From Pseudomonas vanderleydeniana (GTDB lineage: Bacteria > Pseudomonadota > Gammaproteobacteria > Pseudomonadales > Pseudomonadaceae), in NCBI RefSeq assembly GCF_014268755.2, contig NZ_CP077093.1, positions 3,584,001 through 3,648,000 of the forward strand: a stretch of 64,000 nt of DNA, read 5' to 3'. The position numbers and the translations under genes were made by a program. The notes beneath the pieces are model-generated. The model made no database searches, had not been told where the DNA came from, and saw only the letters and a list, made by a program, of their open reading frames with translations. Shown here one piece after another: positions 39,044 through 64,000 of this stretch; position 1 is the stretch's first letter, and every line of letters begins with the position of its first letter.

Positions 39044-39070
39044 TAGAACCTCCAGTTTTGGAAACTTCAG

Positions 39071-45174: not shown

Positions 45175-48100
45175 TTGGTCAGAGAACCGAACGCAGCGCT
45201 TATCCAGCAACTGTTCGAATCCCGGGTACTGCGTGATCCCTCGGCCCCGGCGCTGGGTTTCATGGGGCAGGTCCTGAGTTACCAGCAACTCAACACCCAG
45301 GCCAATCGCCTGGCACACCACCTGCGTTCAGCGGGGGTGGGGCCCGACACGCGGGTCGCCCTCTGCCTGCAACGTTCGCCGCAGATGCTGATCGCCGTGC
45401 TGGCCGTGCTCAAGGCCGGGGGGGCCTATGTCCCGCTCGATCCCGCATACCCCTCGCAACGTCTGGCACACATGCTTGCCGATTGCAGCCCCCGGCTGGT
45501 AATCACTCATGCTGCGGCGTTGTCCGGCTTGAACCCGGCGCTGGCGAGCCTGGCCGAACAGCCCGAGATTCTCGACCTGGCCAACGACACCACCTGGGCC
45601 AAATGCCCAGGCGACAACCTTTCCCCTGACGTCCTCGGGCTGAACGACAGTCACCTGGCCTACGTGATCTACACCTCGGGCTCCACCGGGCTGCCCAAGG
45701 GGGTCATGGTCGAGCACCGTGGACTGGTCAACCTGGCTCAGGTCCAGGGCCCGTTGTTCAAGGTCGGGCCCGGATGCCGAGTGCTGCAGTTTGCCTCCTT
45801 CAGCTTCGACGCCTCGGTCTTCGAGTGGGTCATGGCCCTGGCCCATGGCGCCTGCCTGGAACTCGTCGAGCCCGGCACATTGCTGCTGGGCGACAACCTG
45901 GCAACGGTTCTGCGCGAACGACACATCACCCATGCCACGCTGCCGCCGCTGGTGCTCGCCGGTCTAGGCGAGCCGATGGGCTTGCCCGAGCTGCGTACGC
46001 TGGTACTGGCCGGAGAGGCACCCCCTCCGGCGCTGACCGCCGCCTGGGCGAAAGGGCGACAGCTGTTCAATGCCTACGGACCGACCGAAACCACCATTTG
46101 GGCCACCGTTTACCGTTGCAGCGAGCATCAGGACCCGCAGTCGCCCGTGCCGATCGGTGAACCTATCGATCAGGCCAGTGCCATTTTGCTGGACGAAACC
46201 GGCGTGCCAGTGCGCATGGGCGAGATTGGCGAGCTGTTCATCGGCGGTTGCGGTGTGGCCCGCGGCTACCTGAACCGTGCGCAACTGACGGCCGAACGCT
46301 TCATCGACAGTCCCTTCACACCCGGTGAGCGCCTGTACCGGACGGGCGACCTGGCCCGTTTCGAGGCGGATGGCCAACTGCTGTTCCTGGGGCGCAGCGA
46401 CTTCCAGGTCAAGGTGCGCGGTTTTCGTATCGAGCCTGGAGAGATCGAGGCCTGCCTGAACGCTCTGCCAGGTGTCGAGGCATCGCTGGTGATCGCCCGC
46501 GAAGACACTCCCGGGGACCGCCGGCTGGTGGCCTACTACCTGGCAACGACCGAAATCACGCCTGGACAAGTGCGCGAACATGCCCGACAGTCCTTGCCCG
46601 CTCACATGCTGCCCGCGGCCTGCATGCGCCTGATGCAATGGCCGATCAACGCCAACGGCAAGCTCGATCGGCAGGCGCTGCCGCTGCCCGATGCCGCTGC
46701 GCGGGTTTGCGGCGAGTATGTCGCCCCTCATGAAGGACTGGAGCAGTGGTTGGCCGGTATTTGGGCCGAGGTGCTGAAAGTCGAGCGGGTAGGGCGCGAG
46801 GACAACTTTTTGGCCCTGGGGGGAGACTCCCTCAGCGCCCTGCAGATCACCGTCAGGGTTCGCGAGCAGGGGGGACGTCACCTGCCGCTCAAGAGCCTGT
46901 TTCTCGACGGTACGCTGTATCAGGTGGCACGCCAGTTGAGTGAGCCCATGGCCGATGCACCGCTGCCGCAGCCCACCGCAGTCGATGCTTCGCCGATCGC
47001 ACCGCTGTCCTACCAGCAGAGCGGTGTCTGGTGGTTGAACAAGGTCTCCGATGCCCGTGCCTACCACGCGCAGAGCGTGATCAGCATCCGCGGCCGGATC
47101 GATGAGGATTTGTTGCAGCGCTGCCTGGATGAGATTGTCAGCCGTCACGAGATCTTTCGCACCACCTTTCATGACGATGGCGAGGGCGTGCCTTACCAGC
47201 GTGTCCATGAACAGGCCCTTGCCGCGCTGACCTGTATCGACATCCCGGCAGAGGACGAGCAGGGCTTCATCGCGCGGGTCGAGCAGGAGGTGCACCGGGC
47301 CATCGACGTCTCGAATCTTCCACTGGTTCGCTGGCTGCTGGTCAGGCGTGGCACGGATGCCTATGCGCTGGTCCATATCGAACACCATTTCGTACATGAC
47401 GGCTGGAGTGCAAACCTGTTCCTGGAGGAGCTGCTGCACCTGTACCAGTACCACCACGGCGACCGCAGCGATGCGCTGCCGCTGCCCGGCGCACAATACT
47501 CGGACTATGCCCGCTGGCAGCAGAGCGAGGCGGCCGAAGCCGAATACGAGCGGCAGATGCACTTCTGGAAGCAGCAGTTGCAGGGCGCACCGTTCACCTT
47601 GCCGCTGCCCACCGATTTCCCCAGGCCGTCCCAGCGCAGCGGTCGTGGCCGGCAGTTGCGCTTCGAGCTGTCCGCCGAGTTGGCCGCCAGATTGCGCCAG
47701 TTCAGTGAAACCGAGGGTGTCACAGTCTTCACCACCTTGTTCACGGTGTTCCAGTGGTGGCTGGGCGGGCGCTGCGGTGTCGAGGACTTCCTGGTCGGTT
47801 CGGCCGTGGCCAATCGCAAGTCGGTCGCCTACGAGCGCTGCCTCGGAATGTTCGTCAACAGCGTGGTGATCCGCGCCGACCTGGGCGGCTCACCCTCCTT
47901 CCGCCAGTTGCTGGGCCGCACCGCCGAGCGGATGCTCGACGTCTATGACCACGAAAGCCTGCCGTTCGAACGACTGGTGCGTGAGTTCCAGCCCAGCCGC
48001 TCATTGTCACGCAACCCGCTGTTCCAGGTGGCGTTCAGCTTCCACAACTCGCAGACCCCGCCGCTTCAGGGACCGGGTTTCGATCTGTCGCTGTTCGAGG

Positions 48101-51100
48101 CCTACAGCAACCAGACGGCCAAATTCGACATCGAGGTGGTGGTGATTCCCCGGGGCACCCGGGCCGACAACCCCGACACCCTGTCACTGCTCTGGAACTA
48201 CTCGGCTGATCTGTTCAAGGACGAAACCATGACCCGTTTGCGCGATAACTATCTGGAGCTGTTGGGACAGTGCCTGGAGGCACCGGGGCGCCGCCTCGAC
48301 ACTGACACGGTGATCGGTACCGAAGAGCGTCAGCGGTTGCTCGATGAGTGGAACCAGGTCAGTCCTGCCGAGCCACCGCCCCGTTGCCTGCATCAATTGT
48401 TCGAAGAGCGGGTAGCGCTTGATCCCTGGGCGCCGGCTGTCAGCCTCGAAGGCCAGACGCTCAGCTATGGCGAGTTGAATGCCCGGGCCAACTGCCTGGC
48501 GCGCTACCTGCGCACCCTCGGTATCGGCCCCGATGCCTTGGTGGGGCTGTGTGTCGAGCGCTCACTGGAGATGCTGGTCGGTGTGCTGGCGATCCTCAAG
48601 GCCGGTGGCGCCTATGTACCGCTCGATCCGGTTTACCCGAGCGAGCGCCTGCACCTGTTGCTGGCTGACAGCGCCCCGGCAGTGGTCCTGACCCACGCAC
48701 CGGCCAGGCCCAGCCTGACCGCCGCCTGCAAGGGACTGCAGAGCAAGCCGCGCCTGCTCGACCTGGAAGCCGATGCGACACGTTGGGCTGAGCGTCCCGC
48801 CGAGAACCTCAACCCCGAGGAACAGGGCCTGACCGCGCACCACCTGGCCTACGTGATCTATACCTCCGGCTCCACCGGCACGCCCAAGGGCGTGATGATC
48901 GAGCACGCTCAGGTGGCGCGCCTGTTCAGCAGCACCGCTGCGCAATTCGGCTTCAACGCCGATGATGTGTGGACACTGTTTCACTCCTTCGCCTTCGACT
49001 TCTCGGTCTGGGAAATCTGGGGCGCGCTGCTGCACGGTGGGCGCCTGGTGATCGTGCCGACCCTGACCAGCCGTACCCCGGCAGATTTCTACCAGTTGCT
49101 CTGCGAGCAGGGCGTGACCGTGCTCAACCAGACCCCGAGCGCCTTCCGCAGCCTCATGGGGGCCCAGGCCCGCAGCACAGCGGCGCACAGTCTGCGCCAG
49201 GTGGTGTTCGGCGGCGAAGCCCTGGAGATGACCACGCTCAAGCCGTGGTTCGCCGACCCACGCAACAGCGATACACAACTGGTCAATATGTACGGCATCA
49301 CCGAGATCACCGTGCATGCCACCTACCTGGCCCTGCAGCCTGAAGATGCCGAGCAGCCGGGTAGCCCGATCGGGCGCCCGCTGGCCGACCTGCGCTGCTA
49401 CCTGCTCGGTGCCAACGGGCAACTGCTGCCGATCGGTGCCGAAGGCGAGATCCATATCGGTGGAGCAGGGGTGGCCCGTGGCTACCTGAATCGTGCGCAA
49501 CTGACCGCCGAGCGTTTCATCGACAACCCCTTCGTGCCGGGTGAGCGCCTGTATCGCACTGGCGACCTGGCGCGTTATCGCGCGGATGGCAGCCTGGAGT
49601 TCCTCGGTCGCAACGACTTCCAGGTGAAGATTCGTGGTTTCCGCATCGAACTGGGTGAAATCGAAGCCAGCCTCGCTCGCTGTGCCGGTGTGCGTGATGC
49701 GGTGGTGATCGCCCGCGAGGATCAACCGGGCGAGCCTCGCCTGGTAGCGTATTACACGTGCGCCGAGGGCGCCGTGCCGAGCGCCCGGGAACTGCGTACG
49801 CAACTGGCTGCTGCCTTGCCGGAGCACATGGTCCCGGCTGCCTATGTCAGCCTGGAGGCCTTGCCGCTGACCGCCAACGGCAAGCTCGACCGCCAGGCGT
49901 TGCCGGCGCCCGATGACAGTGCCTTCGGCACACGGCCGTTCAGTGCTCCGCAAGGGCCGGTGGAAAGCGCGCTAGCCGAGGCCTGGGCCCATGTGCTCGG
50001 CCGCGAGCGAATCGGTCGCGACGACAACTTCTTCGCCCTGGGCGGGCACTCGCTTTCGGCTTTGCGGGTGCTTGAGCGGCTGCGGCGACAGGGTATCGAA
50101 CTCGATGCCCGGCTGATGTTCAGCGTCCCGGTACTGCGCGAACTCGCCGCCGGTGTGGACATGGCGGAACTGGCCGCACCGATTCCGGCCAATGCCATCG
50201 TTCGCGGCCTGCCCATCACCCCTGAATGCCTGCCTCTGGTCAGTCTGCAACAGCGGCAGATCGATGCCATTGTCGGCGCGGTGCAGGGCGGTGCCGACAA
50301 CATACAGGACATCTACCCGTTGTCGCCGCTTCAGGAGGGCATGCTGTTCCATCACCTGATGGCGCGTCATGGTGATCCCTACCTGCTCTGGTGCCTGATG
50401 AGTTTCAGCGACCGGGCGACCCTGGAGCGGTATGTCCAGGCGCTGGAAACCGTGATCACCCGCCACGACATCCTGCGCACCTCGGTGTTCTGGGACGATC
50501 TGCAGGAGCCGGTGCAAGTGGTCTGGCGTGAAGTGCAGGGTCTGGTCGAGGAACTGAGCCTGGACCCGGCCGAGGGCGATATCGCCACGCAGTTGCGTCG
50601 ACGCTTCGACCCACGGCAATACCGCCTGCCACTGGAGCGAGCGCCGCTGATGCGCCTGGTCATTGCCCGGGACGAGGTCAACGACCGCTGGCTGGGCCTG
50701 CGCCTGTTCCATCACATCATCGATGACAACACCTCGCTGAAACAGCTCAACGCCGAGGTCGAGGCGGTCCTTGACGGTCACGCGGACAGCCTGCCGCCAG
50801 CCTTGCCCTATCGCAACTTCATTGCCCAGCGGGTCAAGGGGGGGGACCGGCAGGCCCAGGAGCAGTTTTTCCGTGGCATGTTGGCCGGCATCAGCCAACC
50901 ATCCGCACCGTTCGGCCTGCTCGATATCCAGGGCGATGGCAGCGGTGTCGGCGAGGCCCGGCTGATGCTCGACAGCGACCTTGGTCAACGCCTGCGGCAG
51001 TCGGCCCAGGCCCTGGGCGTAAGCCCGGCCAGCCTGTTCCATGTGGCCTGGGGCCAGGTCGTGGGGCAGACCTCCGGTCGCCACGATGTGATCTTCGGTA

Positions 51101-53478
51101 CGGTCCTGTTCGGCCGCCTCTATGGCGGCGAGGGCGCCGAGCGGATCCTCGGACCGTTCATCAATACCCTGCCGATCCGTATCGACCTGGCGGCGCAGGG
51201 CGTGGCAGCCTGCGTGCGTCATACCCATGGGCTGCTGACCCAACTGTTTGAGCACGAACATGCCTCGTTGGCACTGGCCCAGCGTTGCAGCGACATCGCC
51301 TCGCCAACGCCGTTGTTCACCACCTTGCTCAATTACCGCCACAGCGAGCGGGCAACCGAGGGAGGGGACTCGACCTCCGGTGCCTGGAAGGGGATTGAGG
51401 TATTGGGTGGCGAGGAACGCACCAACTATCCGCTGGTGCTGGCCGTGGATGACAGTGGCGAGGGTTTCCGGATCGGAGCCCAAGTCTGCGCGGCGCTGGA
51501 CCCGCATCGCACCTGCGCGATGATGCAGCGGGCGCTGGAAAGTCTGGTCCAGGCCCTTGAGCAGGCGCCACAAGGCCGCCCTGATCGTCTGGATGTCCTG
51601 CCGCCCGGCGAGCGCCGTCAATTGCTTCACGATTGGAACCCTGCTGCGCCTGCCAGCGTCATCCGCGACTGCCCGCACCAGGTTTTCGAGCGCCAGGCTG
51701 CTCGCCAGCCCGCCGCCTTGGCGGCCTGCTTCGAGGGCAGGGCGCTGACCTATGGCGAACTCAATGCCCAGGCCAACCGCCTGGCCCATCACCTTCGCCA
51801 ACGAGGCGTCGGTCCGGAGGTCCGGGTCGGGCTGTGTGTCGAACGTTCACTGGACATGCTGGTCGGCCTGCTTGCCATTCTCAAGGCTGGCGGTGCGTAC
51901 GTCCCCCTGGATCCGGCGTACCCCCGCGAACGCCTGGCCTATCTGCTGCAAGACAGTGGCGTGGCGCTGGTGCTCACTCACCCGGCCGGCCGGGCGGCGC
52001 TGGGCGAAGCCCTGCAAGGCTTGGCAAACGCCCCCGAGTGCCTGGACCTGACCAGCCCGGGCTGGGCCGACGCGCCGACCGACAACCTCGACCCGGCGCG
52101 CCTGGGACTGACGCCATCGAGCCTGGCCTACGTCATCTACACCTCCGGCTCCACCGGCCAGCCCAAGGGGGTGATGGTCGAGCACCGCCAGGTGATGCGC
52201 CTGTTCGACACTACTGCTGCGCAGTTCGCCTTTGACCACGAGGATGTCTGGACGCTGTTCCATTCCTTTGCCTTTGACTTCTCGGTCTGGGAAATCTGGG
52301 GCGCACTGTTGCACGGCGGGCGGCTGGTGGTTGTGCCGGCTCCGGTCTGTCGCGCCCCGGCGGAGTTCTACCGATTGCTCTGCGAACAGCAGGTGACGGT
52401 GCTCAATCAGACGCCGAGCGCCTTTCGTGGCCTGCTCGATGCCCAGGCCCGCAGCAAGGCGACCCACAGCCTGCGCTGCGTGGTGTTCGGGGGCGAGGCG
52501 CTGGAAACCACGGCACTCAAACCCTGGTTCACCGACCCGCGCAACAGCGATACGCAACTGGTGAACATGTATGGCATCACCGAGATCACCGTGCACGCGA
52601 CCTATCTGGCGCTGCGGGCCGAAGATGCCGAGCGTTGCGGTGCAAGCCCCATTGGCCGGCCACTGGCCGACCTGCGTTGCTATCTGCTCGGTCCAGCGGG
52701 GCAACCGGTGCCGATCGGTGCCGAAGGCGAAATCCATATCGGCGGTGCCGGTGTTGCGCGGGGCTACCTGAATCGGCCGGAACTGACGGCCGAGCGGTTC
52801 ATCGACAGTCCTTTCGTGCCCGGTGATCGACTGTACCGCACCGGCGACCTTGCCCGATACCGGGCCGATGGCAGCCTGGAGTACCTGGGGCGCAACGACT
52901 TTCAGGTGAAGATTCGCGGCTACCGCATCGAACTGGCTGAAATCGAAGCCAGCCTGGGTCGTTGTACCGGTGTTCGTGAGGCCGTGGTCCTTGCCAGCGA
53001 GGATCAGCCTGGAGAAGCACGCCTGGTGGCCTACTACACGGTTGCCGAGGGGGCCGCGCCAGATGCGCGTGAGTTGCGTACGCAACTGGCTGCAGTGTTG
53101 CCCGAACACATGGTTCCAGCCGCCTACGTGCGTCTGGACCAGTTGCCTCTGACCCCCAACGGCAAGCTCGACCGCCAGGCACTGCCGAGACCCGATGAAG
53201 CCGCCTACGCGGTGAACACCCATGTTGCACCTGGCACGCCTATCGAGTTGGCCCTGGCCGAGATCTGGTGCGAAGTGCTGCACTGCGAGCGGGTCGGACT
53301 GACCGACAACTTTTTCCAACTCGGTGGCCACTCCTTGCTGGCCACCCGCATCGTCGCCCGGATCGACGATCTGCTGGGCATCGAGTTGCCGATGCGGGTG
53401 ATGTTCGATCACCCGACCATCGAGGCGTTGCTCGATCACCTCTTTACCCAGGCGCAGGAAACCCGCGCTTCCCCTTGA
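45175..53478 (+). CDS. Nonribosomal peptide synthetase 1: A-T-C-A-T-(E/C)-A-T
   Basis: 2767 aa, three modules. A1 (10-505) has pocket residues read as D-A-F-T-V-A-A-I-W, nearest the Phe/Tyr group but uncertain. T1 has its phosphopantetheine Ser at 552 ('LGGDS'). C2 (608-1050) has HHFVHDG at 737-743. A2 (1072-1575) reads D-F-W-N-V-G-M-V-H, the threonine code. T2 Ser is 1626. A dual epimerisation/condensation domain (1686-2150) carries 'HHLMARHGD' at 1726-1734 and HHIIDDN at 1846-1852. A3 (2168-2672) again reads the threonine code, and T3 Ser is 2720. The line starts without a condensation domain, so no acyl starter is expected. The start is TTG 45175 with GAGAGG 6 bases upstream; no in-frame ATG is better. 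The C-terminal T domain must hand the chain to the next protein. Confidence 0.93.
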   Translation: MVREPNAALIQQLFESRVLRDPSAPALGFMGQVLSYQQLNTQANRLAHHLRSAGVGPDTRVALCLQRSPQMLIAVLAVLKAGGAYVPLDPAYPSQRLAHMLADCSPRLVITHAAALSGLNPALASLAEQPEILDLANDTTWAKCPGDNLSPDVLGLNDSHLAYVIYTSGSTGLPKGVMVEHRGLVNLAQVQGPLFKVGPGCRVLQFASFSFDASVFEWVMALAHGACLELVEPGTLLLGDNLATVLRERHITHATLPPLVLAGLGEPMGLPELRTLVLAGEAPPPALTAAWAKGRQLFNAYGPTETTIWATVYRCSEHQDPQSPVPIGEPIDQASAILLDETGVPVRMGEIGELFIGGCGVARGYLNRAQLTAERFIDSPFTPGERLYRTGDLARFEADGQLLFLGRSDFQVKVRGFRIEPGEIEACLNALPGVEASLVIAREDTPGDRRLVAYYLATTEITPGQVREHARQSLPAHMLPAACMRLMQWPINANGKLDRQALPLPDAAARVCGEYVAPHEGLEQWLAGIWAEVLKVERVGREDNFLALGGDSLSALQITVRVREQGGRHLPLKSLFLDGTLYQVARQLSEPMADAPLPQPTAVDASPIAPLSYQQSGVWWLNKVSDARAYHAQSVISIRGRIDEDLLQRCLDEIVSRHEIFRTTFHDDGEGVPYQRVHEQALAALTCIDIPAEDEQGFIARVEQEVHRAIDVSNLPLVRWLLVRRGTDAYALVHIEHHFVHDGWSANLFLEELLHLYQYHHGDRSDALPLPGAQYSDYARWQQSEAAEAEYERQMHFWKQQLQGAPFTLPLPTDFPRPSQRSGRGRQLRFELSAELAARLRQFSETEGVTVFTTLFTVFQWWLGGRCGVEDFLVGSAVANRKSVAYERCLGMFVNSVVIRADLGGSPSFRQLLGRTAERMLDVYDHESLPFERLVREFQPSRSLSRNPLFQVAFSFHNSQTPPLQGPGFDLSLFEAYSNQTAKFDIEVVVIPRGTRADNPDTLSLLWNYSADLFKDETMTRLRDNYLELLGQCLEAPGRRLDTDTVIGTEERQRLLDEWNQVSPAEPPPRCLHQLFEERVALDPWAPAVSLEGQTLSYGELNARANCLARYLRTLGIGPDALVGLCVERSLEMLVGVLAILKAGGAYVPLDPVYPSERLHLLLADSAPAVVLTHAPARPSLTAACKGLQSKPRLLDLEADATRWAERPAENLNPEEQGLTAHHLAYVIYTSGSTGTPKGVMIEHAQVARLFSSTAAQFGFNADDVWTLFHSFAFDFSVWEIWGALLHGGRLVIVPTLTSRTPADFYQLLCEQGVTVLNQTPSAFRSLMGAQARSTAAHSLRQVVFGGEALEMTTLKPWFADPRNSDTQLVNMYGITEITVHATYLALQPEDAEQPGSPIGRPLADLRCYLLGANGQLLPIGAEGEIHIGGAGVARGYLNRAQLTAERFIDNPFVPGERLYRTGDLARYRADGSLEFLGRNDFQVKIRGFRIELGEIEASLARCAGVRDAVVIAREDQPGEPRLVAYYTCAEGAVPSARELRTQLAAALPEHMVPAAYVSLEALPLTANGKLDRQALPAPDDSAFGTRPFSAPQGPVESALAEAWAHVLGRERIGRDDNFFALGGHSLSALRVLERLRRQGIELDARLMFSVPVLRELAAGVDMAELAAPIPANAIVRGLPITPECLPLVSLQQRQIDAIVGAVQGGADNIQDIYPLSPLQEGMLFHHLMARHGDPYLLWCLMSFSDRATLERYVQALETVITRHDILRTSVFWDDLQEPVQVVWREVQGLVEELSLDPAEGDIATQLRRRFDPRQYRLPLERAPLMRLVIARDEVNDRWLGLRLFHHIIDDNTSLKQLNAEVEAVLDGHADSLPPALPYRNFIAQRVKGGDRQAQEQFFRGMLAGISQPSAPFGLLDIQGDGSGVGEARLMLDSDLGQRLRQSAQALGVSPASLFHVAWGQVVGQTSGRHDVIFGTVLFGRLYGGEGAERILGPFINTLPIRIDLAAQGVAACVRHTHGLLTQLFEHEHASLALAQRCSDIASPTPLFTTLLNYRHSERATEGGDSTSGAWKGIEVLGGEERTNYPLVLAVDDSGEGFRIGAQVCAALDPHRTCAMMQRALESLVQALEQAPQGRPDRLDVLPPGERRQLLHDWNPAAPASVIRDCPHQVFERQAARQPAALAACFEGRALTYGELNAQANRLAHHLRQRGVGPEVRVGLCVERSLDMLVGLLAILKAGGAYVPLDPAYPRERLAYLLQDSGVALVLTHPAGRAALGEALQGLANAPECLDLTSPGWADAPTDNLDPARLGLTPSSLAYVIYTSGSTGQPKGVMVEHRQVMRLFDTTAAQFAFDHEDVWTLFHSFAFDFSVWEIWGALLHGGRLVVVPAPVCRAPAEFYRLLCEQQVTVLNQTPSAFRGLLDAQARSKATHSLRCVVFGGEALETTALKPWFTDPRNSDTQLVNMYGITEITVHATYLALRAEDAERCGASPIGRPLADLRCYLLGPAGQPVPIGAEGEIHIGGAGVARGYLNRPELTAERFIDSPFVPGDRLYRTGDLARYRADGSLEYLGRNDFQVKIRGYRIELAEIEASLGRCTGVREAVVLASEDQPGEARLVAYYTVAEGAAPDARELRTQLAAVLPEHMVPAAYVRLDQLPLTPNGKLDRQALPRPDEAAYAVNTHVAPGTPIELALAEIWCEVLHCERVGLTDNFFQLGGHSLLATRIVARIDDLLGIELPMRVMFDHPTIEALLDHLFTQAQETRASP

Positions 53479-53489
53479 GACCCTGAGAG

Positions 53490-53539
53490 CGACCCGGCCC
53501 ACAAGGCCGGGTCGCGGCGTGCGGGGCGTATCACGCCCC
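53490..53539 (+). promoter_or_regulatory. Two tandem hairpins between the NRPS genes
   Basis: CGACCCGGCC-CACAA-GGCCGGGTCG (53490-53514) and GGGGCGT-ATC-ACGCCCC (53523-53539), both perfect and without T-tracts. They lie in the 103-bp NRPS1-NRPS2 gap and may tune or protect the long transcript. Confidence 0.55.
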
Positions 53540-53581
53540 ACAACCCAACAAAAATAATGCAGTCATGGATGGAAGCCTCTC

Positions 53582-56500: not shown

Positions 56501-59500
56501 CCCAGCGCTTTCGTGCATCTCGATGCATGGCCGCTGACCGCCAACGGCAAGCTTGACCGTACGGCCTTGCCGGCACCGGATACCGCAGCCCTCGACCAGC
56601 GCCACTACGTTGCGCCACAAAACGAGCTGGAAACCGCGCTCGCACGGATCTGGAGCGAAGTGCTGGGCGTCGAGCGGGTAGGGCGTGATGACCATTTCTT
56701 CGCCCTGGGCGGGCATTCGCTGCTGGTGATGCAGGTGATCGCGCGGATTCGACGTCATCTGGGGCGGGAGGTGTCGGCCTCCGCACTGTTCGCCGCTCCG
56801 CAGTTGAAAGCGTTCTGCCGCAACCTGGAAGGCTCGACGCAGCGCCCGCAGACGCCGATCAGGCGGATCGAACGAGGCGGCGCGCAAACGTTGTCGTTTG
56901 CCCAGCAACGCCTGTGGTTCCTGGCGCAGATGGAGGGTGGGAGCGCGGCCTACCACATGCCGTTGAACCTGCGCTTGCGCGGCCAACTGCAGGTGCCGGC
57001 GCTTGAACGTAGCCTCAATCAGTTGCTGGATCGACATGAAGCCCTGCGCACGCGCTTCATCAGCGTCGAGGGCGAGCCTCGGCAAGTGATTGCAGAGCCC
57101 GGGCAGGGACTGAAACTGGAGCGGCTCGGCGCCACCGACGACACTGACCTGGAGCGACTGGTCGCCCATGAAGGCGCCCGCGGCTTTGACCTGGAGCACG
57201 GCCCGCTGATCCGTGCGGTGCTGGTCCGGCTGGCCGATGACGAGCACCTGCTGCTGTTGACCCTGCACCATATCGTTTCCGATGGCTGGTCGATGGGCGT
57301 CCTGACCCGTGAGCTCAGCCAGCTGTATGCGGCGGCGTTGGCGGATCGCGACGATCCCTTGCCGGCGCTGCCACTGCAATACCTCGACTATTCGGCCTGG
57401 CAACGCCAGTGGCTGAGCGGCGAAGTGCTGCAGCGCCAGAGCGACTATTGGCGCGAGGCCCTGGCCGATGCACCGGTGCTGCTGGAACTGCCGGCGGACC
57501 ACAAGCGTGCGCCGGTACAGGACTATCGGGGTGCGGTGGTACCGCTGGTACTGGACGAGGAACTGACCCGTCGTCTCAAGGAACTCAGCCATAGTCAGGG
57601 CACGACCCTGTTCATGACCGTGCTCGCCGGCTGGGCACTGGTGCTGGCCCGCCTGTCGGCGCAATCCGACGTGGTGATCGGCGTGCCCGTGGCCAACCGT
57701 CCAAACAGCGAGCTGGAGGCGTTGATCGGTTTCTTCGTCAACACCCTGGCGCTGCGCCTGAGGGTGAATGGCAACCCCAGTGTCAGCCAGTGGTTGCAAC
57801 ACACCCGCCAGGTCGCGTTACAGGCCCAGGAACACCAGGACCTGCCGTTCGAGCAGGTGGTCGAGTTGCTCAATCCGCCACGTAGCCTGGCCTATAGCCC
57901 GTTGTTCCAGGTGCTGTTCGCCTGGGAACAGGGCCAGCAGGGCCAATGGGCATTACCCGGGCTGACGGTGGAGGCGGTCGAGAGCCGCCAGCCTGTCGCC
58001 AAGTTCGACTTGCAACTGGCCCTCAGTGAACGCGACGGGCAGATCGTCGGTGGCCTGGAGTATGCCTCGGGTCTGTTCGACGCGCAGACGGTTGCCGGTT
58101 TCGGCGAGTACCTGCGCCGGGTGCTGATGCAGATGACGGCCGACAGCGACCAGGCGGTCGCCCGTCTCGACCTGCTGACGCCTGAACAACGGCGCAAGTT
58201 GCTGCACGAGTGGAGCCGCAGTGACACGGATCGCGCTCCGCAGGGCCGCTTCCTGTCCCGTTTCGAGGCCCAGGTGCGAAGGGCACCGCAGGCCACGGCG
58301 CTGATTCATGAGGACCAGCACCACAGCTACACCGAGCTGAACGCCGCAGCCAATCGCCTGGCGCATTTCCTTCGCGAGCAGGGTGTTGCCCCCGAGGATC
58401 GGGTGGGCCTGAGCCTGGAGCGTTCGCCGCAGATGATCATCGGCCTGCTGGCGATCCTCAAGGCCGGCGCCGCCTATGTGCCGTTCGACCCGGCCTATCC
58501 GAGCGAGCGCCTGGCCTACATGCTCGACGACGCAGCGCCGAGCCTGCTGCTGACCCACTCGGGGCTGCGGGAAAGGCTGCCGGCGCGCGCCGGTGAGCGT
58601 CCCCTCTACTGCCTGGACAGCGACCAGTCGCTCTGGGCCGACCAGCCCGGCAGCAACCCGGAGGTGGCGACGCGGCCGGACAACCTGGCCTACGTGCTGT
58701 ACACCTCCGGCTCCAGCGGTCGTCCCAAGGGGGTGGCGCATACCCTCCGGGCCCTGGACAACCTGATCGACTGGCAACTGCACGAAGCCGCGGGACAGAC
58801 GCCGGCACCACGGCGAGTGCTGCAATTCGCCTCGCTGAACTTCGATGTTTCGTTCCAGGAAATCTTCAGCACCCTGTGCCAGGGCGGCTGCCTGGTACTG
58901 ATGAGCGAGGACGGGCGCAAGGATCTCGCCACGTTGCGTCCGACCCTGGTGGCCAACGACGTGCAGCGGGCATTCCTGCCATTCGCCGTACTGCAGCAGG
59001 TGGCGGGCCTGACGCAGGCCGATGCGCCAGTGCCGCGCGGCGGCTGCGATATCGTCACCGCCGGCGAGGCACTGAGGGTCAATGACGAGCTGCGCGGCTT
59101 CGTCCAGGGATTGGGCGGTGCGCATCTGTACAACCAGTATGGCCCGACCGAGAGCCATGTGGTTAGTCAGTTCAGCCTGGCCTGTGCCGCAGCCGCCGAC
59201 TGGCCGGAGGCCCCACCGATCGGCCGGCCCATCAACAACGCGCGGCTGTACGTGCTGGACGACGCCCTGAACCTGGTGCCGCCGGGCGTCGCGGGCGAGT
59301 TGTATATCGCGGGCGCCTGCCTGGCGCGCGGCTACCTGAACCAGCCGGAGCTGACCGCCGAACGTTTCCTGCCTGACCCCTTCAGCGAGGAGCCCGGGGC
59401 GCGCATGTACCGCAGCGGCGACCAGGCAAGGTGGCTGGCTGACGGCAACCTGCAGTACCTGGGGCGCATCGACCAACAGGTCAAGCTGCGCGGTTTCCGG

Positions 59501-62500
59501 GTCGAACTGGGTGAAATCGACAGCCTGCTGCAACAACAGCCGGGTGTGTTGGAAGCGGCGGTGCTGCTGCGCGAGGATGCGCCGGGGGACAAGCAACTGG
59601 TGGCCTACATCGTTGGCTCGGCTCCGGTCGAGACGTTGCGCGAAGCCCTGCGTCGCCAGTTGCCCGACTATATGGTTCCCAGCGCCTGGGTGTCCCTGGC
59701 GAACCTGCCACTGACCCGCAACGGCAAGCTCGACCGCCGTGCCTTGCCCGTACCGGAGCGAATCTCCGCCAGCGCCTACGTGGCGCCCCGGGAAGCCGAC
59801 GAGATCCAGTTGACCGCCATCTGGGCCGAGGTGCTCAGGTGCGAGCGGGTGGGGCTGCAGGACAATTTCTTCGAGTTGGGCGGGCACTCGCTGTTGGCCA
59901 CTCGACTGGTCTATGCCATCAACCAGCGCATGGCTGCGCAACTGTCCCTGAGCAGCCTGTTCAACACACCGACGCCGGGTGAACTGATGGGGGCTATCCG
60001 CGCCAGTCGCGACGAGCAGATCCGCAACGAGCCGGCCTTCGCGGTGATCCAGCCGGACCCGGCGGGCCGTTACCAGCCGTTTCCACTGACCGATATCCAG
60101 CAGGCCTACTGGTTCGGTCGCGAGTCGACGGTCAGCCTCGGCGGGGTCAGTGCCCACGGCTACGAGGAATTGCGTATCCGCGATTTCGATATTGCGCGTT
60201 TCGAGCGTGCGCTGAACCGGATGATCGAACGGCACGACATGCTGCGCGTGGTGTTTCTCAGTGATGGGACCCAGCAGGTGCTGGAGCAGGTACCGACGTA
60301 TCGGATGCCACAGACCGACTTGCGTGGCCTGGACCGTGAAGCGGCGCAACAGGCCCTGGACAACAATCGCCAACGCCTGTCCCACCAGGTGCTGGACGCC
60401 AGCCGCTGGCCGTTGTTCGAATTCAGCCTGACCCTGCTGGACGACGGTATCAGCCACCTGCATATCAGCCTCGACGCGCTGATCGTCGATGCGGCCAGCA
60501 GCCAGATTCTTGCCCGTGAACTGATGGGCTTCTACCTGGAGCCGCAACGGACACTGCCCGCACCGGGCCTGAACTTCCGTGATTATGTCCTGGCCGAGCA
60601 GCAACTGCGCAGGGGTGCGCGCTACGAGCGGGCGCTGGCCTATTGGCGCGAGCGGGTTGCGGACCTGGCGCCTGCACCGGATCTGCCCCTGGTGTGCCAG
60701 CCACAGAGCATTGCCACGCCGCACTTCACACGACGCGACCGGCAACTGTCGGTCGAGCACTGGAGCCGGATCAAGGCGCTGGCCAAGCAGTTCGGCGTGA
60801 CGCCGTCGGTGGTATTGCTCACCGCCTTCTGCGAAGTACTCGCCCTGTGGAGCCGCCAGCCACGCTTTACGCTCAGCCTGCCGCTGTTCAATCGGCTGCC
60901 CTTGCACCCGGAGGTGGACTCGATCATCGGCGACTTCACCTCGCTGGTGCTGCTGGAGGTGCAGATCGATGGCAACCTCGGCTTTACCGACAAGGCCCGG
61001 GCCATTCAACAGCGCCTCTGGCAGGACATCGACCATGCGGTGGTCAGCGGCGTGCGCGTACTGCGCGAGCTTTCACAGGCCCGCGGCGCGCAACAGACAG
61101 CGATTCCGATCGTCTTCAACAGCACCCTGTCCGAAGCCGCCACGCAACAGGCCGAGTACAACCTGGCCGATGCCCTGCAGGCGCAGAACGTACACAGCAT
61201 CACCCAGACCCCGCAGGTGTGGATCGACCATACCCTGCTGGAGCTGGAGGGCCGCCTGCTGTTCAACTGGGACAGCATCGACGAGCTGTTCCCCGAAGGC
61301 CTGGTCGAGCAGATGTTCGTTGCCTACAACCAGGTACTTGACCGTCTGCTTGAGCCGGCAGCCTGGTCAGCCGGCACGCCCGCGCTGTTGCCACAGGCCT
61401 GCCTGCCGCCGGCACCGGCGTATCGGCAAACACCGTTGCTGATGCACGAGTTGTTCGATCGACAGGCGCAGGCGACCCCGGATGCCGTGGCCCTGATCGC
61501 ACCAGGCCGGCAACTGAGCTACGCGCAGTTGCGCCATGAGGCTCGTCAGCTCGGTGCACACCTGCAGGCACAGGGCGCAAGGCCCAACCAGCTGGTCGCG
61601 GTCATGATGGAGCGCGGTTGGGAGCAACTGGTGGCAACCCTGGCGATCCTGTACGCCGGGGGCGCCTACCTGCCGATCGATCCAGCGCTGCCGGCCCAAC
61701 GGGTCCGGCATCTCCTGGAGCGGGCCGAGGCCCGTCTGCTGCTCGGTCAGCCGCCCCTGAAACCGGACAGCCAATGGTCGGACCTGGTGCGGATCATCAC
61801 CGTCAGCGAGTCCCTGGACACCGGCGAAACAGCCCTGCAAACGGTTGAACTGACCCCCGAAGACCTGGCCTACGTCATCTACACCTCCGGTTCGACCGGC
61901 ATGCCCAAGGGAGTGGTGATCGACCATCGGGGGGCGGTCAACACGTTGCTGGACATCAACCGGCGCTTCGCCGTCGGAGCGCAGGATCGGATCCTGGCGA
62001 TCTCGTCGCTGAGTTTCGACCTGTCGGTCTATGACTTTTTCGGCAGCCTGGCCGTCGGCGCTGCGGTGGTGTTGCTCGAACCTCGCCTGGCGCTTGACCC
62101 GCTGCACTGGCGCGAGCTGATCGAGCGGCATCGCGTCAGCCTGTGGAACTCGGTACCGGCGTTGCTCGGGCTGTTGCTGGAATCGGTCGAACAGCAGGGC
62201 GGCGAGCTGCCGCCCTGCCTGAGGCTGGCCATGCTTTCCGGCGACTGGATCCCGCTGAACCTGGCGGATCGGGCGCGGGCATTGCAACCGGCCATCGAGG
62301 TGGTCAGCCTCGGTGGTGCAACCGAGGCCTCGATCTGGTCGATCTGCTATCCGATCGGCCCGGTCGATCCCGACTGGCGCAGCATTCCCTACGGCAAGGC
62401 ATTGGACCACCAGCGTTTCCATGTGCTCGACCAAGCGCTGCAGCCACGTCCGACCTGGGTGCCCGGTCAGTTGTACATCGGTGGCGTGGGCCTGGCGAAG

Positions 62501-63994
62501 GGCTACTGGCGTGACGAGAAACAGACCTCGGCCAGTTTCTTCGCCCACCCGGCGACCGGTGAGCGGCTGTATCGCACCGGCGACCTGGGGCGCCTGTTGC
62601 CTGATGGCAACATCGAGTTCCTCGGGCGCGAGGATAACCAGGTCAAGGTCCAGGGCTACCGCATCGAACTGGGGGAAATCGAAGCCGTGCTCAACCGCCA
62701 TCCTGGCGTGCAGAGTGCGGTGGTACGGATACTTGGCGAACAGTTGGGGGAGAAACGCCTGGTGGCCTATGTCATCAGGAGCGACGCTCAACTGCAGGCC
62801 AGTGACTTTGCCCTGTACCTGGCCGACAAGCTGCCGGCCTACATGGTGCCGACTTCCTTTACCTTCCTCGCGGCCTGGCCGCTGTCGGCCAACGGCAAGG
62901 TGGACAAGAACCGCCTGCCGCAACCGCAGGAGGACGAGGATTCAGGACCATTGCTGACTCCCGAAGGCCCGAGGGAGCAGCGGCTGGTGGAAATCGTCGA
63001 GCAACTGCTCAAGCGCCAGGCGATTGCCGGCAATGCCAACCTGCTCAGCCTGGGGGCCACGTCGATCGATATCGTGCGCATCAGCAACGCCCTGGCCGCC
63101 GAGTTGCAGTTCCGGCCGCATCTGGCGCAGCTGCTGGCCCAGCCAACCCTGGCCAACCTGATCGAACTGTACCGTCGCAACCTGGCGACACAGTCATCGC
63201 CCAGCCGTGTCCCGCAACCTGCGGCGGCCGAGGAGGTGATCGAGGATCCGCAACTGCGCCAGCAGTTCAAGGCCGATGAACGGGGGCGCCGACGCTTCGC
63301 CCAGCCGTTGCCGGCAGTGGCCCTGGCACTGCCGACAGACGCCGGATTCGCCCAGCGTTTTCGTGAGTGTCGTTCGGTACGCCGCTACGACCCGCAGGCT
63401 ATCCCGAACAGCGCATTCGCCCATTGGCTGGCCGGGCTGTCGCGTGGACAGCTCGACGGTGAAGTGAAATACCAGTTTCCCTCGGCCGGTGGTCTCTATC
63501 CGCTGCAGGCCTACCTGTACATCAAGCCGCAGCGAGTGGAGGGTGTGCCGGGTGGCGCGTTCTACTACGACCCGGTACGCCATCGACTGCTGTCGATGGG
63601 CGAAGATTCCCAGCTCGATCCCGACACCTACGACTACTTCGTCAACCGTCCGGTCTACGAGAACGCCGCGTTCTCGCTGTTCCTCATCGCCGACATGGCC
63701 GCGATCCGGCCGCTCTACGGCGAACGCAGCCGCGATTTCTGCCATATCGAGGCCGGGGCCATGACCCAGTTGCTGACCCTGACGGCGGCCCACCATGGCC
63801 TGGGGCTGTGCGGCATGGGTTCGATCGATGAGCAGGCGCTGCCACGGCTGTTCGAGCTGGGGGCGAGCCATCAACTGATCTATTCGATGGTCGGCGGTCT
63901 GCGGGACGAGGGAGAACGGCGCAGCACCGAGGTGGAGGCATTCACCCGCACACAGGCGCAAGACGACAGCGACATGGAGGAGATTGAGATATGA
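53582..63994 (+). CDS. Nonribosomal peptide synthetase 2: C-A-T-C-A-T-Cy-A-T-Ox
   Basis: 3470 aa, three modules plus a tailoring domain. C4 (30-470, HH at 165-166); A4 (493-990) reads D-V-A-D-V-G-A-I-D, a basic pocket most like arginine; T4 Ser 1046. C5 (1095-1530, HH at 1229-1230); A5 (1556-2055) reads D-V-Q-F-V-A-Q-V-V, proline-like; T5 Ser 2103. The third module starts with a heterocyclisation domain (2162-2595) whose DxxxxD motif is D2298-D2303; A6 (2620-3115) reads D-L-Y-N-M-S-L-I-W, cysteine; T6 has 'LGATS' with Ser 3161. Residues 3220-3460 are a SagB-type FMN oxidase ('RSVRRYD', 'PSAGGLYPL', 'GLGLCGMGS') that would turn a thiazoline into a thiazole. No thioesterase. GGAAG precedes the ATG, and a short MTPAQFAAL-type N-terminal helix may dock to NRPS1. 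Confidence 0.94.
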   Translation: MFDKTSLRDMTPAQFAALHKRPKITPAVRDDTPPPASFAQRRLWFLAQLAGGGDAYHVPFGLRLNGPLDRSALRQALDRLVARHESLRTTFSVEGDEVVQLIAEADCGCAWQIDDLARHPGADAQVASRADEEARTAFDLREGPLFRARLLILGEQEHVLLLTLHHIICDGWSMAVLTRELGELYDAFRQGLDDPLPVPTLQYADYAQWQQGWLAEQDQAGHADYWRDTLAGAPALLELPGDRPRPALQQYQGGFEPLQLDETLTQQLKALSLRHGCTLFMTLLAGWTVLLARLSGQDDLLIGTPVANRTRRETEGLIGFFVNTLVLRLSLADSPTTVQLLEQARAVALGAQEHQELPFEQVVELLNPERSQAYSPLFQVMFAWENTEPGTLQLGGLSGQPLRGSPQVAKFDLTLVLAEQDGRIVGGLEYARALFDGTTIARFAGYLRQVLEGMVAQPQQPVAALPLLSVEARDNLVREWGGSAPAVQPTGYLHRLFEAQVRRDPKAVAVRCGDDSLSYGELNTRANRLAHELRALGVGPEVRVGLCLERTLDMPLAVLAVLKAGGAYVPLDPGYPLARLQHMLLDSAPLVVLCHGPARSALRTALDGLAAQPLLLDLQDASRRAAPPDHDLAPEALRLTPDHLAYVIYTSGSTGQPKGVMVEHRGLQAVSAAWEDLYALRPGLRHLQMAGFSFDVFSADLIRALCFGGELVLCPRQTLMDPPALYTLLRDARIDFADFVPAVLGPLLAWAEERDQDLSFLETVVCGSDTWSVHSARQLRQLCGAGVRIVHAYGVTEASIDSTCFELPVQPVAEASLPIGRALASARIYLLDGFGAPVPPGVPGELHIGGVGVARGYLNQPELTAERFVDNPFVAGERLYRSGDLARYRADGNLEFLGRNDAQAKLRGLRLEPGEIEARLTDIAGVRDAVVLLRNDASSQSRLVAYYLGSDARGISPGVLREQLALHLPDYMVPSAFVHLDAWPLTANGKLDRTALPAPDTAALDQRHYVAPQNELETALARIWSEVLGVERVGRDDHFFALGGHSLLVMQVIARIRRHLGREVSASALFAAPQLKAFCRNLEGSTQRPQTPIRRIERGGAQTLSFAQQRLWFLAQMEGGSAAYHMPLNLRLRGQLQVPALERSLNQLLDRHEALRTRFISVEGEPRQVIAEPGQGLKLERLGATDDTDLERLVAHEGARGFDLEHGPLIRAVLVRLADDEHLLLLTLHHIVSDGWSMGVLTRELSQLYAAALADRDDPLPALPLQYLDYSAWQRQWLSGEVLQRQSDYWREALADAPVLLELPADHKRAPVQDYRGAVVPLVLDEELTRRLKELSHSQGTTLFMTVLAGWALVLARLSAQSDVVIGVPVANRPNSELEALIGFFVNTLALRLRVNGNPSVSQWLQHTRQVALQAQEHQDLPFEQVVELLNPPRSLAYSPLFQVLFAWEQGQQGQWALPGLTVEAVESRQPVAKFDLQLALSERDGQIVGGLEYASGLFDAQTVAGFGEYLRRVLMQMTADSDQAVARLDLLTPEQRRKLLHEWSRSDTDRAPQGRFLSRFEAQVRRAPQATALIHEDQHHSYTELNAAANRLAHFLREQGVAPEDRVGLSLERSPQMIIGLLAILKAGAAYVPFDPAYPSERLAYMLDDAAPSLLLTHSGLRERLPARAGERPLYCLDSDQSLWADQPGSNPEVATRPDNLAYVLYTSGSSGRPKGVAHTLRALDNLIDWQLHEAAGQTPAPRRVLQFASLNFDVSFQEIFSTLCQGGCLVLMSEDGRKDLATLRPTLVANDVQRAFLPFAVLQQVAGLTQADAPVPRGGCDIVTAGEALRVNDELRGFVQGLGGAHLYNQYGPTESHVVSQFSLACAAAADWPEAPPIGRPINNARLYVLDDALNLVPPGVAGELYIAGACLARGYLNQPELTAERFLPDPFSEEPGARMYRSGDQARWLADGNLQYLGRIDQQVKLRGFRVELGEIDSLLQQQPGVLEAAVLLREDAPGDKQLVAYIVGSAPVETLREALRRQLPDYMVPSAWVSLANLPLTRNGKLDRRALPVPERISASAYVAPREADEIQLTAIWAEVLRCERVGLQDNFFELGGHSLLATRLVYAINQRMAAQLSLSSLFNTPTPGELMGAIRASRDEQIRNEPAFAVIQPDPAGRYQPFPLTDIQQAYWFGRESTVSLGGVSAHGYEELRIRDFDIARFERALNRMIERHDMLRVVFLSDGTQQVLEQVPTYRMPQTDLRGLDREAAQQALDNNRQRLSHQVLDASRWPLFEFSLTLLDDGISHLHISLDALIVDAASSQILARELMGFYLEPQRTLPAPGLNFRDYVLAEQQLRRGARYERALAYWRERVADLAPAPDLPLVCQPQSIATPHFTRRDRQLSVEHWSRIKALAKQFGVTPSVVLLTAFCEVLALWSRQPRFTLSLPLFNRLPLHPEVDSIIGDFTSLVLLEVQIDGNLGFTDKARAIQQRLWQDIDHAVVSGVRVLRELSQARGAQQTAIPIVFNSTLSEAATQQAEYNLADALQAQNVHSITQTPQVWIDHTLLELEGRLLFNWDSIDELFPEGLVEQMFVAYNQVLDRLLEPAAWSAGTPALLPQACLPPAPAYRQTPLLMHELFDRQAQATPDAVALIAPGRQLSYAQLRHEARQLGAHLQAQGARPNQLVAVMMERGWEQLVATLAILYAGGAYLPIDPALPAQRVRHLLERAEARLLLGQPPLKPDSQWSDLVRIITVSESLDTGETALQTVELTPEDLAYVIYTSGSTGMPKGVVIDHRGAVNTLLDINRRFAVGAQDRILAISSLSFDLSVYDFFGSLAVGAAVVLLEPRLALDPLHWRELIERHRVSLWNSVPALLGLLLESVEQQGGELPPCLRLAMLSGDWIPLNLADRARALQPAIEVVSLGGATEASIWSICYPIGPVDPDWRSIPYGKALDHQRFHVLDQALQPRPTWVPGQLYIGGVGLAKGYWRDEKQTSASFFAHPATGERLYRTGDLGRLLPDGNIEFLGREDNQVKVQGYRIELGEIEAVLNRHPGVQSAVVRILGEQLGEKRLVAYVIRSDAQLQASDFALYLADKLPAYMVPTSFTFLAAWPLSANGKVDKNRLPQPQEDEDSGPLLTPEGPREQRLVEIVEQLLKRQAIAGNANLLSLGATSIDIVRISNALAAELQFRPHLAQLLAQPTLANLIELYRRNLATQSSPSRVPQPAAAEEVIEDPQLRQQFKADERGRRRFAQPLPAVALALPTDAGFAQRFRECRSVRRYDPQAIPNSAFAHWLAGLSRGQLDGEVKYQFPSAGGLYPLQAYLYIKPQRVEGVPGGAFYYDPVRHRLLSMGEDSQLDPDTYDYFVNRPVYENAAFSLFLIADMAAIRPLYGERSRDFCHIEAGAMTQLLTLTAAHHGLGLCGMGSIDEQALPRLFELGASHQLIYSMVGGLRDEGERRSTEVEAFTRTQAQDDSDMEEIEI

Positions 63995-64000
63995 ATGCCG
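63991..64000 (+). CDS. Start of the next gene in the NRPS operon (cut by the window edge)
   Basis: ATGAATGCCG: the ATG overlaps the NRPS2 stop in ATGA and GGAGGAG lies about 9 bases upstream, so a translationally coupled gene almost certainly begins here. Only three codons are visible. A thioesterase, a further NRPS module or a tailoring enzyme is expected, as NRPS2 lacks a release domain. Confidence 0.6.

Follow-up and report, generated by a model that had tools for sequence, protein, structure and literature searches.

The detoxin/rimosamide-like (DRL) family is defined by nonribosomal peptide synthetase/polyketide synthase (NRPS/PKS) and tauD genes (PMC8302735). Chitinimide A, from the chm cluster of Chitinimonas koreensis, contains Phe, two dehydrobutyrine (Dhb) residues, Ser, Arg, a Pro-derived ring, a thiazole (Thz) and Met (PMC8302735). 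The ppp cluster of Pseudovibrio and the mbp cluster of Microbulbifer are heptamodular, with pppD or mbpD following, and the pseudobulbiferamides conform to Tyr/Phe-[ureido]-Dhb-X-Arg-Pro-Thz-Y (PMC11796379, PMC12911931, PMC10616845), pseudobulbiferamide A being Phe-[ureido]-Dhb-Gly-Arg-Pro-Thz-Gln from a heptamodular line (PMC10616845). The pip cluster of Pseudomonas entomophila makes pseudotetraivprolide (PMC12828459), and a putative cluster of P. fuscovaginae LMG 2158 has been described with seven A domains ahead of the core, with no product named (PMC8302735). A further locus is described here from the complete 7.03 Mb genome of P. vanderleydeniana (G000 in our numbering of genomes), within a stretch of 64,000 nucleotides (C1:3584001-3648000, hereafter the window). 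Two co-directional NRPS genes in it, N1 (2767 aa; 45175..53478, + strand) and N2 (3470 aa; 53582..63994, + strand), very likely form the first half of a four-gene ureido-DRL NRPS/PKS line making Phe-CO-Dhb-Thr-Arg-Pro-thiazole-Met esterified to a hydroxylated, acylated (Ile/Val)-Pro-acetate. N1 is PppA/ChmA-like (A-T-Cu-A-T-CD-A-T; predicted Phe-[ureido]-Dhb-Thr) and N2 is PppB/ChmB/PipA-like (C-A-T-C-A-T-Cy-A-T-Ox; predicted Arg-Pro-thiazole), the domain orders coming from Pfam and from hidden Markov models (HMMs) built in this analysis.

A first-pass annotation of the window had proposed a thiazole-ended hexapeptide that could be matched to no known pseudomonad metabolite. However, the window ends mid-operon, 10 bases into a third NRPS gene, N3 (63991..64000, + strand; full gene at genome positions 3647991-3652151), the start of which has a 4-base overlap with the end of N2; the line continues for about 13 kb further. 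N3 supplies a seventh module ending in a TE (TubC_N docking-C-A-T-TE), and N4 (genome 3652148-3661297, + strand, beyond the window) encodes a two-amino-acid/PKS protein, A-T-C-A-T-KS-KR-T-TE, with KS, KR and its own TE and without a Pfam match to an acyltransferase (AT) domain. The hallmarks of a DRL cluster are thus found together: a hybrid A-T-C-A(Pro)-T-KS-KR-T-TE protein lacking an AT (N4), an NRPS with a terminal TE upstream of it (N3), and a TauD-type dioxygenase beside it (a PipE homologue at genome 3662256-3663137, 84% to PipE of genome G029). The cluster therefore likely belongs to the DRL family in its long ureido form, as in chitinimide, pseudovibriamide and pseudobulbiferamide, and the LMG 2158 cluster, going by its published description, is probably of the same type. 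The peptide line that had stood unmatched is now placed as a seven-module ureido-DRL of pseudomonads near P. fuscovaginae/P. gingeri.

The chm line, for which we used the sequence of genome G064 (inferred to be C. koreensis), shares with the present cluster a Phe-like A1, the Curea motif, DDNTS-type C domains behind Thr modules, the Arg-Pro-Cys run, the detoxin-core NRPS/PKS and homologues of PipE, PipF and PipG (PMC8302735). It differs in having eight modules (Phe-Thr-Ser-Thr-Arg-Pro-Cys-A8) instead of seven, an A8 code unlike A7 here, and a weak PipD match. This chm cluster (G064:C1 about 3440000-3487000) reads in several broken frames; the authors of PMC8302735 re-sequenced the genome. Going by their published descriptions, the pseudobulbiferamides carry Gly or Ala at X3 and Gln at Y7, where the line here has Thr and probably Met. 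In a plasmid collection, N2 DNA was covered over at most 8% of the query among the matches listed, and the N3 and TauD proteins gave no Pseudovibrio or Microbulbifer plasmid among the best 15 matches each, the N3 records listed lying below 60%. The pip system has in common with this one the Arg-Pro-Thz-Met part, N3 (72% identical to PipB of P. entomophila COR5), N4 and PipDEFG; in contrast, COR5 is without an N1 orthologue, so that Phe, urea and Dhb are missing, and pip has the N-acetyltransferase PipH (PMC12828459). The first-pass reading had named, as its own refutation, a known cluster matching in order and codes; chm (compared as sequence) and ppp and mbp (compared through papers) largely provide one, though with differences in module 3 and in the exact product. 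The underlying observation is real and the family known; the congener is probably unreported.

The first-pass description of six modules with their pocket codes and terminal Cy and Ox domains was borne out by Pfam/HMM domains and aligned codes, and chance is no issue for this six-module reading. N1 and N2 together hold six A domains, and N1 begins with an A domain; with no starter C ahead of it, the line is not a classical lipopeptide synthetase, as had been noted. The pocket codes were read by alignment with the last Lys assumed, using substrate meanings and GrsA positions that we take to be the standard ones. A1 (45214..46689, + strand) reads DAFTVAAIWK, Phe-like, and differs from A1 of the chitinimide line (DAFTIAAVWK) at two conservative Val/Ile places; as chitinimide contains Phe, residue 1, earlier given as an aromatic X, is best read as Phe. 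A2 (48400..49911, +) and A3 (51685..53193, +) both read DFWNVGMVHK (Thr), A4 (55070..56578, +) DVADVGAIDK (Arg), A5 (58262..59755, +) DVQFVAQVVK (Pro) and A6 (61454..62926, +) DLYNMSLIWK (Cys), which supports the two Thr, the Arg, the Pro and the Cys-derived thiazole assigned before. The Cy domain (60083..61396, +) falls into a single clade of six Cy rows (100/100) in a 62-row C-domain tree, in which clades come from whole domains and the "CD" and "EC" labels from motifs. The Ox domain (63371..63889, +) has a nitroreductase fold (PF00881, E 7e-16) and is predicted to oxidize the thiazoline to the thiazole. The code of A7 in N3, DAWVFGVVIK, is identical to that of PipB of P. entomophila COR5, and the tetrapeptide of P. 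entomophila L48 occurs in methionine sulfoxide forms (PMC12828459), suggesting that module 7 probably adds Met. The codes of N4, DAFFLGVTFK (Ile/Val-like) and DVQFVAHVVK (Pro), recur in the clusters of G016, G026, G029, G057, G058 and G060, where one position of the Pro code is either Val or Ile.

An ordinary start of the peptide is not supported. Among MIBiG C domains, ureido formation appears to require the motif EHHXXHDG, and this motif appears to be enough for it; in ureido lines the outer residue is determined by the loading A-T and the inner one by the module after it (PMC11212132). The first C domain of N1 (Cu; 47002..48342, + strand), which follows an A-T start, carries EHHFVHDG (47380..47403, +) and groups with four other Cu rows in one clade (100/100) of the 62-row tree. 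The start is therefore predicted as Phe-CO-Thr2/Dhb2, with Phe1 joined tail-outward through a urea between it and residue 2. Support independent of motifs comes from the N-acetyltransferase PipH, said to be missing where the N-terminus is acetylated or carboxylated (PMC12828459). PipH was found in none of the five long clusters (G000, G057, G058, G060, G064) and in every one of the four short clusters read, one of which had supplied the query; its absence from the long clusters points to a blocked or carboxylate end, hence to a urea.

The C domain behind the first Thr module (CD; 50317..51630, + strand) is E/C-like and is predicted to dehydrate Thr2 to Dhb. A dual E/C domain, and with it D-Thr at position 2, had been proposed for this place, and the E/C-type N-terminal motif is indeed present as HHLMARHGD. 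The identifier of E/C domains is given as HH[I/L]xxxxGD, and their second motif as HHxxxDH with the last His less often Ala or Asn (PMC10531924). In comparison with a classical dual E/C domain, CD has the first motif and a place in the E/C superclade, but its second motif is HHIIDDNTS (50710..50736, +; genome C1:3634710), an instance of HHxxDD[AN]TS, and not HHxxxDH. In the 62-row tree, CD shares a clade (99/99) with the five other DDNTS domains, and this clade is nested within the E/C superclade (100/100). The G064 line has the codes Phe-Thr-Ser-Thr-Arg-Pro-Cys, then A8 in the pieces DVQYLG and GVYK, and the C domains behind both Thr modules read HHIIDDNTS while that behind Ser reads HHIVSDGWS. 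Set against the residues of chitinimide A, these codes imply that both Thr become Dhb and that Ser does not. Since CD groups with the chitinimide C domains and shares HHIIDDNTS with them, residue 2 is predicted to be Dhb rather than D-Thr, which a Thr module and a dehydrating C domain after it would make together. Behind Thr3 stands a C domain (53684..55012, +) of the ordinary LCL-like type with HHIICDGWS, so Thr3 is predicted to stay Thr. The CD active site reads HHxxDDN; dehydrating C domains of the CmodAA type are recognized by HHxxxDG and a clade of their own, and our trees were built without CmodAA rows. In phmmer comparisons, CD scores higher against McyB (154.8 bits) and PvdL (137) than against McyA (81.4) and AmbE (68.3).

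Fuscopeptin provides a case in which both outcomes lie side by side: it is acyl-Dhb-D-Pro-...-Dhb-D-aThr-L-Ala-..., where aThr is allo-threonine, and includes Dhb14 and D-aThr15 (PMC9679282, for strains other than IRRI 6609). A stretch of P. fuscovaginae IRRI 6609 with a starter C-A(Thr)-T has HHLIDDATS ahead of A(Pro), and another stretch, A(Thr)-T-C-A(Thr)-T-C, carries HHLVDDATS after its first Thr module and HHMALDHTA after the next. By residue order this stretch would belong to fuscopeptin, with DDATS and DHTA matching Dhb14 and D-aThr15, respectively. In a table of 118 distinct C domains whose upstream code could be read, all 17 HHxxDD[AN]TS domains stand behind a Thr code, against 22 of 53 HHxxxDH domains; the table is enriched in Thr, because 30 of its loci were retrieved by querying with Thr-A plus CD, and leaves one odd E/C-type row, HHLRLDLQQ (behind Thr), unclassed. 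Without those 30 loci the counts behind Thr are 8/8 and 3/34 (Fisher p 1.4e-6; the rows are not independent).

A DNA pattern for the motif, which is blind to the A domain and slightly wider than the motif itself, found 87 places in 38 of 398 same-genus genomes, and a reversed control pattern found 9 places in 9 genomes. Sixty of the 87 places were fetched by choice rather than at random (39 looking like NRPS codons and 1 not, then 8 odd-looking ones and 12 more, leaving out 27); 51 lie in NRPS C domains that carry the motif, and the 9 without a C-domain match were dropped from the count. The code ahead of the 51 motif domains is Thr in 46, Ser in 3, unreadable in 2 and anything else in none, which gives Thr/Ser in 49/49 readable cases (38/38 for the first 40 places fetched alone), with rows that are largely orthologues across species and hence not independent. 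In 3 of these 51 domains, the E/C-type N-terminal motif did not pass our test. The three motif domains that follow Ser would predict dehydroalanine (Dha). The Asn form, DDNTS, occurs in 3 of the 398 genomes (G000, G080 and G430), which probably carry the long DRL line.

"Special dehydrating C/E domains" have been suggested from two examples, stenothricin and stendomycin (PMC10880069). The dehydrating class is thus already suspected in the literature, and the signature is what is added here; HHxxDD[AN]TS may mark these domains. It seems rather probable that domains annotated as E/C (D-Thr/D-Ser) and carrying the signature make Dhb/Dha, the extra Asp and the lost E/C His switching alpha-proton removal from epimerization to beta-elimination. 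Two features of a larger tree speak against so simple a story: the HHxxDD domains are not one clade (the bootstrap had not settled), and 10 DDATS rows group with HHLINDATS, behind Leu1 of an asplenin-like line, and with HHLINDELS, behind a Thr code. In the same tree, which kept about every fourth L-type row (11 rows), DDNTS is a clade of 7 rows (100/99). The HHLINDATS domain behind Leu1 belongs to an asplenin-like line of P. fuscovaginae; Leu is not dehydratable, and the domain is perhaps an epimerization-inactive leftover. The routine motif rule, by which E/C means a D-residue, would mispredict the product here, and the short signature would tell Dhb from D-Thr in other such enzymes and makes the proposal of PMC10880069 directly testable across many synthetases. 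Neither the signature nor the predicted product was found described in searches of a library of open-licence papers, most of the hits being covered through their listing.

Full-length N1 orthologues were found in four of six genomes, namely P. fuscovaginae IRRI 6609 (89%) and SE-1 (88%), P. gingeri D8001 (83%) and Parachitinimonas caeni (55%), and not in the other two, P. bananamidigenes and P. entomophila COR5. A search with N1 residues 560-1100, which was flooded by giant NRPSs scoring many domains at once, had two P. asplenii relatives among the matches listed, of 2764 aa (90%) and 2759 aa (87%). PipG and N1 together give identities of 86-90% for P. asplenii/P. fuscovaginae and 80-83% for P. 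gingeri. The A2-CD stretch has a close orthologue in 1 of 148 other same-genus genomes (G080, 88%), the next best match being 58%. An N3 orthologue at 70-76% occurs in 4 of 35 same-genus relatives (G016, G026, G029 and G034); these are short clusters starting at the Arg module, preceded in G026 by a partial C domain, and no N1 was found in the stretches of them that were read. Accessory genes were compared over nine stretches of 40-96 kb. Homologues of PipD (ATG at genome 3661287, to 3662021), PipE, PipF (about 3663195-3663905, - strand) and PipG/GSCFA (3663868-3664944, - strand) are present in all five long clusters, the G064 PipD being weak. The short cluster at G026:C108 about 654001-684000 has PipE and PipH and no PipD, PipF or PipG in the stretch read, like the clusters of P. 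viridiflava and P. syringae, which are said to lack pipDFG (PMC12828459). At G034:C1 about 4015659-4034000, N3 and N4 are each split over two reading frames, by decay or a sequencing fault.

The assembly proposed below starts from the gene order, domains, codes, motifs and orthology described above, and models each chemical step, as well as the antidote role, on the relatives. N1 would load Phe, and its EHHFVHDG C domain would link Phe to Thr2, head to head, through a carbonyl, so that the carboxylate of Phe becomes the free end. In the course of its transfer to Thr3, Thr2 would be dehydrated to Dhb by the HHIIDDNTS C domain. N2 would then add Arg, Pro and Cys, with Cy and Ox converting Cys to the thiazole, and N3 would add Met. 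Separately, N4 would assemble (Ile/Val)-Pro, which after extension by malonate would be reduced to a beta-hydroxy acid, the AT-less protein being loaded with malonate by FabD in trans, by analogy. The N3 thioesterase would transfer the heptapeptide onto the hydroxyl of the N4 unit as an ester, as reported of the ester-forming TE for pip and chitinimide (PMC12828459), after which PipE would hydroxylate the tail proline and PipDFG acylate it. The heptapeptide acid is predicted as C37H52N10O10S2 ([M+H]+ 861.3382), and the full-length Ile product (OH and acetyl) as C52H76N12O15S2 (1173.5067; Val form 1159.491), with formulas cross-checked against those published for chitinimide and pseudobulbiferamide. 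Pseudotetraivprolide, pseudovibriamide B and the chitinimides act as antidotes to blasticidin S in B. cereus (PMC8302735, PMC12828459), and the free heptapeptide of Pseudovibrio affects motility. If the present line resembles these relatives, its complete product would be an antibiotic antidote, and its heptapeptide, when free, might influence motility. The placement thus provides exact masses to look for and a ready blasticidin S antidote assay.

Several points weigh against this reading. The product is predicted from genes. Thr as residue 3 is unmatched in the known products, which have Gly/Ala or Ser-Dhb there, and its dehydration is possible; Met7 depends on code identity with an enzyme of another species. 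For PipD, the C. koreensis cluster yields a weak, partial match (38%, E 8e-8). The ester went undetected in Microbulbifer despite mbpD, and the antidote role is known against blasticidin S in few strains, in an assay called probably a proxy (PMC12828459).

If both Thr were dehydrated within the same family, a Dhb-Dhb product would result, for which chitinimide A with its two Dhb residues is a precedent (PMC8302735); however, the C. koreensis line Phe-Thr-Ser-Thr-Arg has a DDNTS C domain behind each Thr and HHIVSDGWS behind Ser, and the HHIICDGWS behind Thr3 here makes this variant improbable. Release as two separate products with no ester between them, N1-N3 giving a free ureido-heptapeptide like pseudovibriamide A and N4 a free (Ile/Val)-Pro-acetate, would agree with the TE that each of the two parts possesses, with the accumulation of heptapeptide and tail unit besides the ester in Pseudovibrio, and with Microbulbifer, where only the heptapeptide series was detected. 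In contrast, N3 resembles COR5 PipB (72%) and N4 is 63-66% identical to its counterpart in the four short clusters, a point mutation in the PipB TE of P. entomophila L48 stops all full-length ester products (PMC12828459), and the accessory genes for the joined product are kept; separate release is thus regarded as unlikely.

Most doubtful of all, and very unlikely, is the stand-alone hexapeptide X-D-Thr-Thr-Arg-Pro-thiazole with an E/C domain epimerizing Thr2. The HHLMARHGD motif and the position of CD inside the E/C superclade (100/100) would suit epimerization, but HHIIDDNTS stands where E/C domains have HHxxxDH, and the DDATS and DHTA domains behind successive Thr in P. fuscovaginae match Dhb14 and D-aThr15 (PMC9679282), given the assignment to fuscopeptin by residue order. 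The 4-base overlap of the TE-bearing N3 with the end of N2 likewise argues against a line that stops at the thiazole. Siderophore, lipopeptide and protease-inhibitor readings were set aside after N3, N4, the TauD gene and the GSCFA gene were found. For the metal-ligand function once suggested, no support was found, and of the suggested protease inhibition there is a faint echo only, in the weak inhibition of cathepsin B by chitinimide A (PMC8302735).

Behind PipG lies an MFS-transporter-like gene with a match below the curated cut-off, and a + strand open reading frame (ORF) at L012:17180-17986 was dropped as antisense to PipF. The other 16 of the 23 C-domain matches in the genome lie at G000:C1:5242709-5304543, perhaps in siderophore synthetases. 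Within the window, an ORF of 878 aa at 37298-39934 (- strand) fuses Fer2, FAD-binding and NAD-binding oxidoreductase domains with an M24 peptidase-type domain, an odd fusion.

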